18,130 nt of DNA from Mycoplasmataceae bacterium (lineage in GTDB: Bacteria > Bacillota_I > Bacilli_A > Mycoplasmatales > Mycoplasmoidaceae): the NCBI GenBank assembly GCA_031278855.1, contig JAITJR010000045.1, positions 1 through 18,130 of the forward strand, read 5' to 3'. The notes under the pieces were generated by a model that searched no databases, was not told where the DNA came from, and worked only from the letters and a program-made list of their open reading frames with translations. The position numbers and the translations under genes are program-made. This document shows positions 4-13,185 of the stretch, one piece after another. Each line of letters begins with the position of its first letter. Position 1 is the stretch's first letter.

Positions 4-77
4 TGGCGGGGGTTATAGGAATTGAACCCATATCAGTGGTTTTGGAGACCATTATTCTACCATTGAACTAAACCCCC
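4..77 (-). tRNA. tRNA-Trp (anticodon CCA)
   Basis: On the minus strand the cloverleaf reads acceptor GGGGGUU pairing with AACCCCC, discriminator G and an encoded CCA (4-6). The T arm has loop UUCAAUU. The anticodon loop is CUCCAAA, giving anticodon CCA. This tRNA reads UGG only. In a code-4 organism a second tRNA-Trp(UCA) must exist elsewhere to read the very common UGA codons, and UGG is rare but present here (for example twice near the end of the surface protein at 11177-13123). It lies 11 nt behind the ymdB-like gene, so it is probably processed from the same transcript. Confidence 0.93.
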
Positions 78-5893: not shown

Positions 5894-6514
5894 TTATTTA
5901 AAATAAGGATTATGTATTTTTATTTCAGCTCATTGTCCGTTGGGACCATGTCCTGGCAATATTCAATCGGTATCGTTGCAATATTTATAAAATAATTTTA
6001 GCGATGCCTCCATTTGTTTAGGATCGCCTAGCATTAAATCAGTACGACCAACGGAATCATAAAAAACGGTGTCGCCACTAAATAGATAGTTGTGGTAACG
6101 CAAAATGATACCACCAGGTGTATGGCCTTTTAGCAATAGAATTGAAAAAACAAATTTCCCGATTGTCAAAGTAACATCCTGAAAATATTGGATAAAATTA
6201 AAATCAATATCAATGGGTAGATTTAATTCTTTTGCAAAATTGTGTCTTTCAACTACAAGTTTTTCATCTTGATGAAGATAAACTTGAACTTGGTATTTTC
6301 TAGCTAAATCAAAGGTATTACCAATGTGATCATAGTGCCCATGTGTCAAGATAATTCCAACCAGAATTAAATGGTTAGCTTGGATAAATGATTCGATGGC
6401 TTTGGCATTTAAACCTGGGTCAATTAATACACAAGTTTTTTCAATGGTTAACAAATAAGAATTCACTAAAAAGCGACGGTCTACAAAAATCTTTAAGTCA
6501 TTCCCTATTTTCAT
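5894..6514 (-). CDS. MBL-fold metallohydrolase (YcbL/glyoxalase II-like)
   Basis: 206 residues. Metallo-beta-lactamase-fold hydrolase with a complete binuclear metal site: LTHGHYDHIGN (His58, His60, Asp62, His63), KGHTPGG (His131), FSGDTVF (Asp148) and LPGHGP (His189). GRTDLMLGD and the spacing match hydroxyacylglutathione hydrolase-like proteins without the C-terminal glutathione-binding domain. The substrate is unknown; thioester hydrolysis or methylglyoxal detoxification is possible. The last 23 codons, including the LPGHGP motif, follow a UGA Trp at 5963-5965 and would be lost under the standard code. Divergent from the hydrogenase operon with adjacent -10 boxes, so the two could share regulation, but nothing ties this protein to H2 metabolism directly. 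Confidence 0.88.
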
Positions 6515-6520
6515 ATATTT

Positions 6521-6526
6521 ATCATA
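6521..6526 (-). promoter_or_regulatory. Candidate -10 box for the MBL-fold gene
   Basis: TATGAT on the minus strand, 6 nt before ATG 6514. There is no ribosome binding site between the box and the start, so a leaderless start is likely. It lies 3 nt from the divergent hydrogenase -10 box. Confidence 0.45.
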
Positions 6527-6529
6527 GTA

Positions 6530-6535
6530 TATAAT
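6530..6535 (+). promoter_or_regulatory. Candidate -10 box (TATAAT) of the hydrogenase operon
   Basis: TATAAT on the plus strand. Transcription would start near 6542 and give a leader of about 22 nt containing CGGAG (6551-6555), a ribosome binding site before ATG 6564. No clear -35. The box nearly abuts the divergent promoter of the MBL-fold gene. Confidence 0.5.
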
Positions 6536-6563: not shown

Positions 6564-7070
6564 ATGATGGAAAATAAGGGCGAATCATTAGCCTGTAATG
6601 CTTGTAACACAAACGATGCTTTTGATGCGTTTGCTGAAACAGTAAGAACTATTAAAGCCAAGCACGGAACTAAATTAATGGCTTTACAAGAAGCTCAAGT
6701 AAAATTCGGTTACCTAGATAAAGATGCCATGAATATTATTGCGGATGTGTTTGATACTACCACTAGCGAAATCTATGCAATTGCGTCTTTTTATGCCCAA
6801 TTTAAATTTGTGAAACAGGGTAAATATCGGATTGCCCTTTGTTTAGGGACAGCATGCTACGTTAGAGGAGCGGCCAAAATTCAGCAAAAATTGGAAGAAG
6901 TATTACAAATGAAAATGGGCGATACTAGTCAAGATGGAAAATTTACTTTGGGTAGCGCGCGTTGTGTGGGTTGTTGTGGTTTAGCTCCAGTAATGTTAAT
7001 TAATGAAAAAGTATATCCAGCCGTTAAACCTGAACAAGTACCTGAGATTATTAACGAATATAAAGACTAA
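6564..7070 (+). CDS. hydC: [FeFe]-hydrogenase NuoE-like subunit (HydC/HndA type)
   Basis: 168 residues. Thioredoxin-fold [2Fe-2S] subunit of the NAD-linked multimeric hydrogenase, homologous to complex I NuoE. Helical N-terminal half (residues 20-80, with VKFGYLDKDAMNIIADVF and IYAIASFYAQF typical of NuoE). Cluster ligands are Cys93 and Cys98 in CLGTACYVRG, and Cys134 and Cys138 in CVGCCG. An additional CNAC motif at residues 11-14 is not part of the usual cluster. Preceded by a ribosome binding site (GGAG at 6552-6555); ATG ATG offers two adjacent starts. It lies 11 nt before hydB, in one operon. It would pass electrons between the NuoF-like FMN subunit and the other clusters. HydC and HndA are alternative names for the same subunit type. 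Confidence 0.93.
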   Translation: MMENKGESLACNACNTNDAFDAFAETVRTIKAKHGTKLMALQEAQVKFGYLDKDAMNIIADVFDTTTSEIYAIASFYAQFKFVKQGKYRIALCLGTACYVRGAAKIQQKLEEVLQMKMGDTSQDGKFTLGSARCVGCCGLAPVMLINEKVYPAVKPEQVPEIINEYKD

Positions 7071-7081
7071 GGGAAATGATT

Positions 7082-8962
7082 ATGAGCAAAATGACCATTG
7101 AGCAATTAAATATAATTAAAGATAAATTTGTACGCAACATTGAGCAACGCCAAATTCATCAAGAAGCTAGTTATCAAGGCAAATTTCAAGTTTTAGTTTG
7201 TGCATCCACTGGGTGTATTTCTAACAAGTCACTACTAGTATTAGAACGATTTGTGAAAAAAGTGAAAGAGATTGGTTTACAAGATCAGGTGGACGTCGTC
7301 CAAACTGGTTGTCATGGTTTATGTGAAATGGGGCCTGTAGTAATCGTGTATCCGCAAGGTGCTTTCTATGCAAAAGTAACTGTTGCTGATGTTGATAAGA
7401 TTGTTGAACAACATTTAAAAAATAATCAAATCGTGAAAGAGAAGTTGTTTTGAGAGTCTTTTCAAAATGACCAATTAGTACCGCTAAACCAAACGGGATT
7501 TTATAAGAAGCAAATTCGAATTGCTTTGCGAAATTCAGGACTTATTAATCCTGAACGAATTGAAGAATACATTGCTACCGACGGTTACCAGGCATTATGA
7601 AAAGTCTTAAACATGAGTCGTGAAGATGTTATTAAGATTGTTAAAGACTCAGGATTAAGAGGACGTGGTGGTGGTGGTTTTCCAACTGGAACAAAGTGAG
7701 ATTTAGCCTCCAAAGCGGTTGGTAAGAAGAAGTATGTTTGTTGTAATGGTGATGAAGGTGATCCAGGGGCTTTTATGGATCGTTCTATCTTGGAAGCTGA
7801 TCCGCATTCAATCATTGAAGCGATGTCAATTGCTGCTTATGCGATTGGAGCTGATGAAGGTTATATTTATGTAAGAGCTGAATATCCAGTGGCTGTAAAA
7901 CGATTAGAAATTGCGATTAAACAAGCTAAGAAGATCGGATTATTAGGACAAAATATTTTTGGTAAGAATTTTAATTTTAAACTTACCATTCGTTTAGGTA
8001 GTGGAGCATTTGTTTGTGGGGAAGAAACTGCTTTAATGACTTCAGTTGAGGGTAATCGTGGTGAACCAAGACCAAGACCACCATATCCTGCTAACCAAGG
8101 TTTATATAAGTGTCCAACGATTTTAAATAACGTCGAGACTTATGCTAATATTCCGCCTATTATTAACAAAGGAGCAGCATGATTTAGTGCGATTGGTACC
8201 GCTAAATCCAAGGGTACCAAAGTATTTGCTTTGGGTGGTAAAATTAAAAACACTGGTTTAATCGAAGTGCCAATGGGAATTACCTTAAAAGAAATTATTT
8301 ATGAAATTGGTGGTGGTATTTTAGATAACGGCAAATTTAAAGCTGCTCAAACTGGCGGGCCTAGTGGTGGGTGTATTCCAAGTGAATTGATTGATACCCC
8401 AATTGATTATGATAATCTAATCGCCATCGGTTCCATGATGGGTTCAGGTGGATTGATCGTAATGGATGCATCATCGTGCATGGTAGATATCTGTAAATTT
8501 TACATGGAATTTTGTGCGGATGAGTCGTGCGGTAAATGTGTTCCTTGTCGTATTGGTAACAAACGATTATTAGAAATGCTAACCGATATTACCGAAGGTC
8601 GTGGTAAAGCAGGCGATATCGAAAGGCTGGAAACACTTTGTCAACACATCAAAGCAACATCTTTGTGTGGTTTAGGACAAACTGCTCCCAACCCAATTTT
8701 ATCGACGATGCGTTATTTTCGTAGTGAATATGATGCCCACGTTTTGGAACATCGTTGTCCAGCTGGTGTTTGTAGTAAGTTATTACAATTTCGTATTATT
8801 TCCGATATTTGTAAAAAATGTTCGTTATGCGCTCGCGTTTGTCCAGTTAAAGCTATTAGTGGTGAAGTTGGCAAAACCCCATATGTAATTGATCAAAGTA
8901 AATGCATAAAATGTGGTGCATGTATTGGTGCATGTAAATTTAAAGCGATCGAAAGAAATTAA
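7082..8962 (+). CDS. hydB: [FeFe]-hydrogenase NuoF-like NADH-binding subunit (HydB/HndC type)
   Basis: 626 residues under code 4. All four Trp codons (7451, 7598, 7697, 8180) are UGA. Domains in order: thioredoxin-like [2Fe-2S] domain with Cys40, Cys45, Cys77, Cys81; FMN/NADH domain with [11 protein letters not shown] (193-203), [11 protein letters not shown] (221-231) and [23 protein letters not shown] region; [4Fe-4S] N3-type site SCGKCVPCR with Cys483, Cys486, Cys489 plus Cys529; C-terminal double [4Fe-4S] ferredoxin with Cys577/580/583/587 and Cys608/611/614/618. This is the fused architecture of bifurcating-type HydB. It oxidises or reduces NAD(H) and links it to HydA. ATG 7082 is preferred over ATG 7076 because GGGA at 7071-7074 is correctly spaced from it. 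The stop lies 9 nt before hydA. Confidence 0.94.
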
Positions 8963-8971
8963 GGAGACTTT

Positions 8972-10714
8972 ATGGAGAAGATGATAAATTTAAAAATTGA
9001 TGGTATCCAGGTTAGTGTCCCTATCGGAGCCACAATTTTAGATGCAGCAAACATTGCCAATGTTCGTATTCCAACGTTATGTTATTTGAAAAAGATTAAT
9101 GCGATTGGAGCTTGTCGAATATGTTTGGTTGAAGTTAAAAACATGCGTCCACTAGTTGCAGCATGTGTGTATCCAGCTAGCGAAGGGATGGAAGTATTTA
9201 CACATACCGAAAGAGTTAATCAAGCCCGTAAAATTAATTTAGAATTAATTTTATCAGCTCATGTAAAAAATTGTTTATCATGTGCTAAGTCGATGACTTG
9301 TGAATTACAAAAACTTTCACTAGAGTATGGATGTAACGAGAATCATTTTAAAGGGGCGATGCCCAAACGTACCGTTGATAATTCTTCGCCTTGTTTAATT
9401 CGTGATTCGCAAAAATGCATCTTGTGTAAGCGATGTAAAGCGGCTTGTTACGAAACCCAAGCTGTTAAAGTAATTGCGGTTAATAATCGTGGATTTGAAA
9501 GTTATTTAGGTTGTGCTTATGGTGCCGATATAAATGATACGGCCTGCGTTGGTTGCGGTCAGTGTACTTTAGTTTGTCCAACTGGGGCATTGATGGTTAA
9601 AAGTGATATTGATCGAGTTTTACAAGCTTTAAGTAATCCAGAATTGACAACAATAGTAGCTCCAGCTCCATCAGTACGAGTGGGAATTGCTGAAGAATTT
9701 GGCGAACCAGTTGGTACCAATGCCGAAGGTCGATTAGTGACAGCTCTACGAATGTTAGGATTCAATAAAGTTTTTGACATTGATTTTGCTGCTGATTTAA
9801 CCATTATGGAAGAAGCGAATGAATTGGTAGAACGAATTCAAAATAAAGGTGTTTTACCCATGATGACTTCTTGCTCTCCAGGTTGAGTGCATTTTTTAAC
9901 TGCTTACCATCCTGATATGATCCCCCATTTATCTAGTGCCAAATCACCTCAAGGAATGTTTGGTGCAACCGTAAAAACTTATTGATGTGAAAAAAATAAA
10001 GTTGATCCAGCTAAAACATTTGTAGTCACAATTATGCCTTGCACAGCTAAGAAGCACGAAATCTTGCGTAAAAAAGATATGCATAATCATACCCCAGATA
10101 TTGATGCTGTGTTGACGGTACGTGAATTAGGATTATTGTTAAAACGCCAAGGAATTAATTTTGCTAAATTAACCAAAGGAACATTCGACGATCCGTTGGG
10201 TGAATCCACTGGAGCTGGAGTAATCTTTGGAGTAACGGGTGGGGTGATGGAAGCTGCTTTAAGAACAGCAGCTGACACTTTAACTGGTCAATCTTTAACA
10301 AGCATTGATTACAAGAAAGTCCGTGGTACGAAAGGCATTAAAGAAGCAACAGTGAACATTAACGGAATGAAAATTAATGTTTGTGCGGCAAGTGGATTAG
10401 CTAATGCTCAAAAAGTATTAGCGGATGTGAAAAGTGGTAAAAAACAATATCATTTCATTGAAATTATGGCATGTCCTGGTGGATGTGTTAATGGTGGTGG
10501 CATGCCAATCCACGATCCAAATGTAGTTTCGTTTACCGAGCGAGCGAAACTTCGTGCTAAATCTATTTATAAAGAGGATGAACGTAAGACCATTCGTAAA
10601 TCGCATGAGAACACACAAATTATCCAATTGTATAAAGAGTACTTTGGCAAACCAGGTAGTCACAAAGCACACGAAGTGTTGCATACTACTCACGACAAGC
10701 GAAGATTTATCTAA
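8972..10714 (+). CDS. hydA: [FeFe]-hydrogenase catalytic subunit HydA
   Basis: 580 residues, the size of a CpI-type enzyme. Catalyses 2H+ + 2e- to H2 at the H-cluster. Domains: [2Fe-2S] ferredoxin (Cys37, Cys48, Cys51, Cys65); His97-x3-Cys101-x2-Cys104-x5-Cys110 [4Fe-4S] site; two [4Fe-4S] sites (Cys149/152/155/159 and Cys192/195/198/202); H-cluster domain with L1 TSCSPGW (Cys301), L2 MPCTAKKHE (Cys357) and L3 MACPGGCVNGGGMP (Cys501, Cys505); small-subunit-like tail ending YKEYFGKPGSHKAHEVLH. All four H-cluster cysteines are present. L3 ends GGGMP where GGGQP is usual. Both Trp codons (9884, 9983) are UGA. AAGGAG (8961-8966) is a strong ribosome binding site. Maturases HydE/F/G are needed and are not in the window. 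Confidence 0.96.
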
Positions 10715-11176: not shown

Positions 11177-13123
11177 CTAAGCTTCTTCCACCGTCCAATC
11201 GCTTAAACCATTAAAAAAATCCTTAAACCACTCAGCGACCGTCTTACTGCCCTCATCATAATAATAAATCTTCCCATTAGTCCCAGACGCATCGAAGGCA
11301 TTGTAATTATTATCTCCACCTGGTTGAGCCACCGCTCCAGCTGGAATAAAAATTTCCTTTAGATTAGTCATGGCTCGAAAAGTCCCTGATTTGATAGCAG
11401 TAGTATTTTCGTTAGCAAACATAGCACTTGAAAACTTTATGGTGCTGGCGCTGCTGCACGCAGCGAAGGCACAATCGCCGATGCTGGTGAGATTGTAGCA
11501 GGAGGAGAAATCAATAGTGGCAGCGGAATTACACTGCGCGAAAGCATAAGCACCGATGGTTTCGAGGGAAGACGGAAGGGTGATATTGATCATGTATTCA
11601 CAATGACTGAAGGCATACTTTCCGACGGTTTTAAGCGAATCCTGAAAGGGAACATCGGTAAACTCACATCACTCAAATGCATAGTTCCCAATGGTGATGG
11701 CTGGTGGGGCAGAGGGAAAATCGATGGTGAATTTTAGAGTATCATTTGCGAAGGCACAATCGCCGATGTAAAAACTATTGAGATCACTTGGGATTTCAAC
11801 AAACCTAATACTCGTAGTGAAGTTTTCTAACATCCTACAACGCTGGAAGACCCCAGTTTCTTCGTCATAATTCCCATCGGCGATAGACCTCACCCCTTCG
11901 AATAAAATAGCGGTGGTTTTAAAATTTCCCAAACCACTGAGATAATTTTCGAATTTTGTTTGGACTTCATATTCTTCTCAATTCTGGATTTGGTTCAACA
12001 CCCCATCCGCATCAATCCGAAGATTGCAAGCATCGCGCAGTGCTGGATCACTAGCTAATTTAATACTGCTAATGACTAGTGTATTCGAAATATTGAACAC
12101 CATCCCAGCAGTAGCCACTAAATTCTTGCCACCTTCTGTATAATTCGCGGTAATAGTAGCAGTAGTTCCATTTGCGGTTGGTCCAGTCGGAGTCCCGCTA
12201 ATAATCCCCGTATCTTTATCAATGCTTAAGCCTTTAGGCAGACTGGAAGCACTATAAGAAACACCGCTTTCAACAACTGTACCATTTACCGAGCACGATA
12301 ATTCATCCGTGGTGAGCTCATATAAAGCATTGCCTGTAATAGGCTCTGTCGGAACATTGATTGTAAAACTTTCCACAATTTGACTATCAATCTTAAAAGC
12401 TCTTGAAACCGAACCAGTCAAACCATCAGCAGTCGTAGTAATGGTATAAAGCCCAAATCCTTCATCATTTGGCGCCCCACTAATGATTCCAGTCTCTTTA
12501 TCAATTTCCAAACCATTTGGCAAACCATCAGCTTCATAGACAACACCTGAAACTTCATCACCTGTATCAGTTTTACATGAAAGCTGATCGGTGGCTGCAA
12601 TCTGGGTTTGAGCATTCCCTTCAATATTTTTAGCACCACTAATATCTAATGATTTCGGTATTTGATCCCCGATCGTGAGCTTGATGGTAGTATTACCAGC
12701 TAAATTCGAATAAGCTTGACTAGACACTTTTATTGGTATTTGATATTCCCCTAAGCTACCATCAGGCGGAGTTCCTGTAATTTCACCTGTTGCAGAATCG
12801 ATCGCTAATCAGTCTGGCATTGAAGCCAAAGTATCAAAAGAGTATTGACCATCGCTCACGACGATATCAGTGTCGGTGGAACAATACAGCCTCGGCGAAC
12901 TAAGCGGAGAATTGATATTGCCACTGATACTCGCGGCGGCCCCGATGATTTTAAGCGAACTCGGAAGAGCATTATTATTGTTGGCATTCCTGGTGTATCA
13001 AATCGCGTAGCCGATGCCAATGCCACCGCCTAGTCCAGCGACGATTGTGCTAGTGGCGAGAGCAGCTTTGATTTTGCGATCTTTATTGTGGGATTCTTGT
13101 GTTTTAGTTTTGTTGTTTTTCAT
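11177..13123 (-). CDS. Membrane-anchored surface protein with Ig-like repeats and BspA-type leucine-rich repeats
   Basis: 648 residues. Lys/Asn-rich N-terminus (MKNNKTKTQ), then a hydrophobic Gly/Ala-rich anchor at about residues 19-42 (AALATSTIVAGLGGGIGIGY); no lipobox cysteine. Next come three putative-Ig (He_PIG-like) repeats recognised by MPDWLAIDSATGEITGTP, LPNGLEIDKETGIISGAP and LPKGLSIDKDTGIISGTP. The C-terminal third has LRR_5/BspA repeats (TIGNYAFEWCEF, TVGKYAFSHCEY, TIGAYAFAQCNS, SIGDCAFAACSS). Such proteins are exported adhesins or host-binding proteins. A fragment LPSSLKIIGA just after the anchor resembles the LRR unit LPSSLETIGA far downstream, hinting at domain shuffling. Visibly more GC-rich than neighbouring genes. 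Strong ribosome binding site AAGGAG at 13130-13135. The leader contains a G8 tract and a hairpin (separate entries). Confidence 0.88.
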
Positions 13124-13150
13124 GATTGACTCCTTGGTTAGCAATAGTGA

Positions 13151-13185
13151 AAACAAGCTTTACCCAAAATGGCTAAAGCTTGTTT
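13151..13185 (-). terminator. Perfect 12-bp hairpin in the leader of the surface-protein gene
   Basis: AAACAAGCTTTA and TAAAGCTTGTTT form a perfect 12-bp stem around an 11-nt loop. In the minus-strand transcript the stem is followed by a short U run (UUUUC). It could end the glyS-dnaG-deoD transcript, whose last stop is at 13274. It could also act as an attenuator, since the candidate promoter at 13263-13268 lies upstream and the AUG at 13123 lies 27 nt downstream. Confidence 0.7.

Follow-up and report, generated by a model that had tools for sequence, protein, structure and literature searches.

A hydCBA operon of the NAD-linked [FeFe]-hydrogenase type in a mycoplasma genus without HydE, HydF or HydG above model cut-offs

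The window analysed here is the whole 18,130-nucleotide stretch of contig JAITJR010000045.1 (contig C110 in our numbering), part of an 895 kb Mycoplasmataceae assembly of 111 contigs that is 78.9% complete. Positions 6564-10714 are occupied by the genes hydC, hydB and hydA, which are co-directional under genetic code 4, separated by gaps of 5 and 9 bases, and each preceded by a short G-rich stretch 5' of the start codon (Table 1). Coordinates and Pfam/NCBIfam matches agree with the first-pass annotation of this DNA, which had described three adjacent genes for NuoE-like, NuoF-like and H-cluster subunits of an NAD-linked [FeFe]-hydrogenase. HydA contains the Pfam domains Fe_hyd_lg_C (H domain), Fe_hyd_SSU (small-subunit tail) and Fer2_4 and scores above the curated NCBIfam cut-offs of FeFe_hydrog_A6 (NF040763; 812 versus 765 bits) and TIGR02512 (495.5 versus 405.95 bits). 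HydB combines Complex1_51K, NADH_4Fe-4S and Fer4 domains with an N-terminal thioredoxin-like [2Fe-2S] region and a C-terminal 2x[4Fe-4S] ferredoxin region; neither HydC nor HydB reaches the equivalog cut-offs for NuoE and NuoF. The best solved chain for HydA is 7q4v_A (630.5 bits), and 7q4v, like 8a5e, is a structure that we take to be Acetobacterium woodii HydABC. The cysteines of the HydB C-terminal 2x[4Fe-4S] region, by which bifurcating HydABC is recognized, are present when aligned to 7q4v_B, and according to an excerpt of PMC9499530 they are conserved across all characterized bifurcating enzymes. HydB and HydC are encoded in the same operon as HydA, which is the partner arrangement of group A6, and a 92% identical HydA copy in public data bears the automatic annotation '[FeFe] hydrogenase, group A'. 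Judged by HydA family scores and operon partners, hydCBA is thus of the NAD-linked [FeFe]-hydrogenase type first proposed, trimeric and of NCBIfam group A6.

Every in-frame tryptophan codon of the operon is TGA (6 TGA, 0 TGG), and the 12 other genes of the window use 38 TGA and 5 TGG. At HydA position 305, which is tryptophan in 71 of 71 non-mycoplasma homologues, a UGA codon is found. The operon is written in code 4 and is therefore not contamination from a standard-code bacterium, a point on which the first-pass annotation was right. A metallo-beta-lactamase (MBL)-fold gene adjoins hydC here and, judged by reading frame, also at loci L058, L059, L061 and L067 of relatives; the hydC neighbours differ in L060 and L070, and L062 offers just 123 bases at this place. 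That the operon is a misassembly, a contaminant or a dying relic might be argued from its resting on a single contig of a metagenome-assembled genome (MAG), but misassembly is unlikely because of the UGA at a conserved tryptophan and the same MBL-hydCBA junction in the four relatives, and the open reading frames and low dN/dS (given below) speak against decay, so that we consider this explanation barely credible. A tRNA-Trp gene with a CCA anticodon was observed at the contig edge (window 4-77, minus strand); a UCA partner may lie beyond that edge.

The residues of the active site were compared by aligning HydA to CpI, with a constant offset of 2 and checked numbering, which places HydA Cys301 at CpI Cys299 and Ser302 at CpI Cys300. 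We take CpI Cys299 to be the proton relay and CpI Cys300, 355, 499 and 503 to be the ligands of the [4Fe-4S]H cube. On these assumed roles, cysteine stands at three ligand positions of HydA and Ser302 at the fourth, and the possibility that all four cube ligands are cysteines was rejected. The earlier listing of Cys301, Cys357, Cys501 and Cys505 as intact ligands consequently holds for three positions, but Cys301 falls at the proton-relay position. Serine at the fourth ligand position is also found in 7q4v_A, in all eight maturase-complete carriers and in all six maturase-less carriers described below. Among the 13 mycoplasma A6 HydAs it is serine in 10 and cysteine in three (genomes G011, G029 and G032), which form one branch in the tree. 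Twelve positions (P233, E281, E284, C301, S321, M355, C357, K360, F419, M499, C501 and C505), presumably belonging to the H-cluster pocket, the [2Fe] binding site and the proton path, are invariant in 13/13 mycoplasma A6 HydAs and are shared by the six non-mycoplasma sequences without maturases above cut-off and the eight with all three; over the whole alignment, the 13 agree in 198 of 580 columns. One of the 13 has CPNGC instead of CPGGC, and position 355 is Met in one of seven mycoplasma HydAs of non-A6 kinds. Deviations from the usual CxGGC motif were noted in the HydAs of L013 (G003; CPNGC) and L020 (G013; CKNGC).

An [FeFe]-hydrogenase was detected in 20 of 36 genomes of the genus and in 21 of the 99 genomes searched overall, the additional one belonging to another genus of the family. 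Besides the A6 enzymes, the genus contains a kind of 446-450 amino acids in five genomes, two long proteins of another kind, and a shorter kind in eight genomes, whose copy in the source genome of the window belongs to group B1 (516 bits, cut-off 450); this copy (L201, G000:C73, 5158-6576) lies 3' of a ClpB-like ATPase frame. The phylogeny was obtained by a quick LG+G4 search with 91 rows. Of these, 19 came from the genus and 72 from 80 named loci, which were the best of 121; L058-L062, L067 and L070 (probable duplicates) and L074 (a second Bittarella) were left out. As long branches join L014-L018 and L019/L020, only the A6 clade was relied on. In this tree, the 12 A6 HydAs of the genus and that of Ca. 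Hennigella equi form a single clade (SH-aLRT 100). This clade lies inside wider Clostridia and has as its sister group (support 96) 39 sequences from Lachnospiraceae, Oscillospiraceae and other Bacillota. One horizontal transfer followed by descent fits this topology best, and the donor would have been Clostridia-like. The ratio of nonsynonymous to synonymous substitution rates (dN/dS) of HydA is 0.035-0.114 against seven genus orthologues, values that are rough at a dS of 1.2-2.1. In genome G011, the one of the three cysteine-bearing genomes whose hydA surroundings were inspected, the hydA gene (L195, G011:C1:146000-165500, 7938-9683) has no adjoining hydB or hydC and a gene for pyruvate:ferredoxin oxidoreductase (PFOR) nearby; this A6-derived HydA with a cysteine at the fourth ligand position (L195; also L008 and L009), which stands alone in G011, represents an apparent switch from trimer to stand-alone enzyme. 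Immediately 3' of this lone hydA, two weak Fer4 matches in small frames (G011:C1:153696-153869) perhaps derive from a broken or short ferredoxin.

A search of the source genome for redox partners, as the first-pass annotation had suggested, identified a 2[4Fe-4S] ferredoxin on contig C76 and PFOR on contig C108 (1628 bits). Across the genus, PFOR was found above cut-off in 17 of 20 genomes with hydA versus 8 of 16 without it (Fisher p 0.034, a value that ignores kinship), which suggests a weak association. A HydABC driven by NADH and ferredoxin would fit a gene set of PFOR, ferredoxin and PflA. Named relatives are likewise called Mycoplasmataceae bacterium and bear isolate codes (for example Cc175, Po218 and Gx481) that we attribute to a survey of termite and cockroach guts. 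The first-pass annotation had suggested an exchange of H2 with a protist or gut community, which we treat as a hypothesis. Searching PMC9137090 by term yielded no mention of mycoplasmas, and in the portion of PMC11257099 at hand the Mycoplasmatales are counted among the established protist endosymbionts represented in termite assemblies.

The reading that we favour, and hold with even confidence for and against, is that of a horizontally acquired and selected, soluble heterotrimeric HydABC that oxidizes NADH and ferredoxin and evolves H2, with a [2Fe] unit that is either of extracellular origin or reaches it through an unrecognized route. The genes would have passed from Clostridia-like bacteria to an ancestor of the mycoplasma lineage and then been kept by selection. 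HydB would oxidize NADH at its FMN and reduced ferredoxin at its C-terminal [4Fe-4S] clusters; electrons would pass along the iron-sulfur chain of HydA to the H-cluster, where protons would be converted to H2, and NAD+ would return to glycolysis and oxidized ferredoxin to PFOR. We infer the direction of electron flow, the use of both donors, the H2 activity and the outside supply of the [2Fe] unit. That H2 chemistry is in use is suggested because the catalytic residues are conserved in several kinds of hydrogenase. The account draws on the family scores and nearest solved chains, the HydB C-terminal cysteines, the twelve invariant positions, the low HydA dN/dS among genus orthologues, the single mycoplasma clade, and the PFOR and ferredoxin of the source genome.

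Several results weigh against this account. HydE, HydF and HydG are regarded as necessary to obtain an active [FeFe]-hydrogenase. Profile searches of 60 genomes, including the source genome and 36 genomes of its genus, yielded no HydG (TIGR03955) match at E <= 0.001 in any of the 60, no HydE (TIGR03956) above the cut-off of 254.6 (weak matches in 8/60, best 27.8 bits) and no HydF (TIGR03918) above the cut-off of 325.55. The synonymous divergence of HydA is near saturation even among the seven orthologues, and against the distant copies of Hennigella, G029 and G011, at saturated dS, dN/dS reaches 0.22-0.34. Finally, HydABC made in E. coli acquired the [2Fe] unit only once a synthetic precursor had been supplied, as described in an extract of PMC9499530. 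This reconstitution also implies that uptake of a finished [2Fe] unit is possible for the protein. The lack of maturases above cut-off argues that the cell does not make the [2Fe] unit by the known pathway; it may be supplied by co-resident bacteria or a protist, living neighbours that we infer as a source, or by an unrecognized pathway. The first-pass annotation had taken hydrogenase activity as given, which the lack of HydE, HydF and HydG above cut-off in the 60 genomes does not support. It had also named the joint absence of all maturases and of any ferredoxin system as grounds for abandoning its proposal; the former was found, as judged by the model cut-offs, when hydE, hydF and hydG were sought elsewhere in the genome, but ferredoxin and PFOR are present.

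The meaning of these negative searches depends on whether maturases could have been missed, either by being too divergent for the models or by residing on plasmids or unbinned contigs outside the MAGs. Only MAGs represent the lineage, with the source genome fragmented and incomplete, and radical S-adenosylmethionine (SAM) proteins were individually named in just two genomes: all six above cut-off in the source genome (HemW-like, MiaB, MtaB, PflA, RlmN and NrdG) and three of the six in G011. Partial HydF matches covering the N-terminal half occurred in all 60 genomes (best 100.8 bits), and these and the weak HydE-like matches are taken for GTPases and other radical-SAM proteins. Against an oversight stand the 0/36 result in the genus, several of whose genomes are more than 90% complete in 10 or fewer contigs, the detection by the same method of PFOR genes with up to 9 UGA codons, and the control genome of Thermotoga maritima, which is likely the one genome that passes all three cut-offs and is the only one named as such in the HydF control run and in the hydrogenase search. 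The chance of one gene being missed in all 20 genomes with hydA was put at about 1e-17, a rough figure that assumes random and independent gaps, and we regard missed maturases as improbable. Further controls came from 28 genomes reached via hydA loci (nine mycoplasma, 19 non-mycoplasma), in which HydG was above cut-off in 0/9 mycoplasma genomes. Loci L058-L062, L067 and L070 are very probably genomes G027, G033, G005, G021, G019, G024 and G001, and their lack of HydG therefore adds nothing to the 0/36. The HydE and HydF control runs covered 26 genomes, namely the 19 non-mycoplasma and seven mycoplasma genomes (without G101, G102 and G103, with G011). Among the 19 non-mycoplasma carriers, HydG was above cut-off in eight, HydF in 13 and HydE in 11; eight (including Haloplasma, Mycoplasmatota) had all three, five a part and six (G113, G114, G118, G120, G121 and G125) none. 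On the basis of these six, we rejected the idea that a lack of maturases is peculiar to mycoplasmas. Sub-threshold HydE-like matches reached 127 bits in G113 and 157 bits in G115, which has HydF only. Most of the maturase-less control carriers are MAGs, an excuse to which G114 (Bittarella strain GD6) and G125 (titled complete genome) are less open; their loci L073 (Bittarella) and L131 (Fermentithermobacillus) contain an A6-like hydA. In a survey of Clostridium acetogens, as far as an excerpt shows, hydE and hydF were found in every species and hydG in just three (PMC9431212).

The main competing explanation, unlikely in our judgement though less so than missed maturases, is an apo-complex that never receives a [2Fe] unit and makes no H2, acting as a ferredoxin:NAD+ oxidoreductase or diaphorase with HydA as an iron-sulfur scaffold. 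It would account for the lack of maturases above cut-off, it draws on the stability of E. coli apo-HydABC, which retains its other clusters (PMC9499530, in part), and it could accommodate the single CPNGC protein. Yet a scaffold would not be expected to keep the presumed [2Fe]-binding and proton-transfer residues invariant in 13/13 sequences, and the genus retains several [FeFe]-hydrogenase kinds, including the G011 hydA without adjoining hydB and hydC, for which such a role makes little sense. A broader version of the H2-evolving reading, which we put forward tentatively as possible, is that the whole mycoplasma lineage runs several working [FeFe]-hydrogenase kinds without its own HydE, HydF and HydG by obtaining the [2Fe] unit or a precursor from neighbours or a protist host, or by a novel pathway, and that the same may hold for some gut Clostridia that carry this enzyme.

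Among known systems, the presumed A. woodii HydABC is alike in its three subunits, domains, TSCSPGW motif and aligned HydB C-terminal cysteines; here, in contrast, the operon resides in a mycoplasma, in code 4 and in a genus without maturase genes above cut-off. The HydABC-type operon of Moorella thermoacetica (L124) shares the ITSCSPGW motif and an A6-like HydA, but its genome (G124), unlike that of the mycoplasma, passes the HydE, HydF and HydG cut-offs. The hydCBA of Ca. Hennigella equi, a horse-gut mycoplasma (L066), has the same gene order, belongs to the same clade and comes with no HydE, HydF or HydG above cut-off, but has a HydA identity of 58% and different operon neighbours. Ca. Mycoplasma girerdii of Trichomonas vaginalis is likewise a mycoplasma with PFOR, pyruvate formate-lyase and ferredoxins, but the authors of its description were unable to identify hydrogenase genes (PMC5476646, in the sections available). 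Giardia and Entamoeba have hydrogenases and draft genomes reported without maturases (an excerpt of PMC2148110); as eukaryotes, they differ from the present host.

The surroundings of the operon are summarized in Table 1. A promoter-like site precedes hydC, in a scan that was at chance level overall (20 sites versus 19.2, standard deviation 4.4, in shuffled sequences). On the other side, a gene at window 11177-13156 (minus strand) encodes Ig-like, long Rib and BspA-type leucine-rich repeat domains, possibly a surface protein, at a GC content of about 0.42 versus about 0.3 across much of the window.

Table 1. Features of the hydCBA region (window coordinates)
Feature	Position	Strand	Description	Match
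hydC	6564..7070	+	NuoE-like [2Fe-2S] subunit, 168 amino acids	PF01257, 150.7 bits (cut-off 24.8)
hydB	7076..8962	+	NuoF-like FMN/NADH subunit, 628 amino acids, 4 UGA Trp codons	best solved chain 7q4v_B, 875.9 bits
hydA	8972..10714	+	H-cluster subunit, group A6, 580 amino acids, 2 UGA Trp codons	NF040763, 812 bits
Promoter-like site	6508..6535	+	5' of hydC; TTTTCA, 16, TATAAT	10/12 matches
MBL-fold gene	5894..6514	-	neighbour, divergent from hydC	PF00753, 86.2 bits (cut-off 22.7)

[FeFe]-hydrogenases were earlier reported in other Tenericutes, RFN20 and RF39, according to the part of PMC7301438 consulted. For the Mycoplasmatales, no hydrogenase was described in the titles or abstract openings among the matches listed from the open-access literature, and the Ca. 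M. girerdii paper gives PFOR and no hydrogenase; the operon would bring H2 metabolism into this order. The question of how organisms without maturases obtain an active [FeFe]-hydrogenase has Giardia and Entamoeba as examples named in 2008 (PMC2148110, excerpt). It would become testable, with few candidate genes, in a bacterial lineage that has several hydrogenases but no maturase above cut-off in genomes of about 0.5-1.3 Mb.

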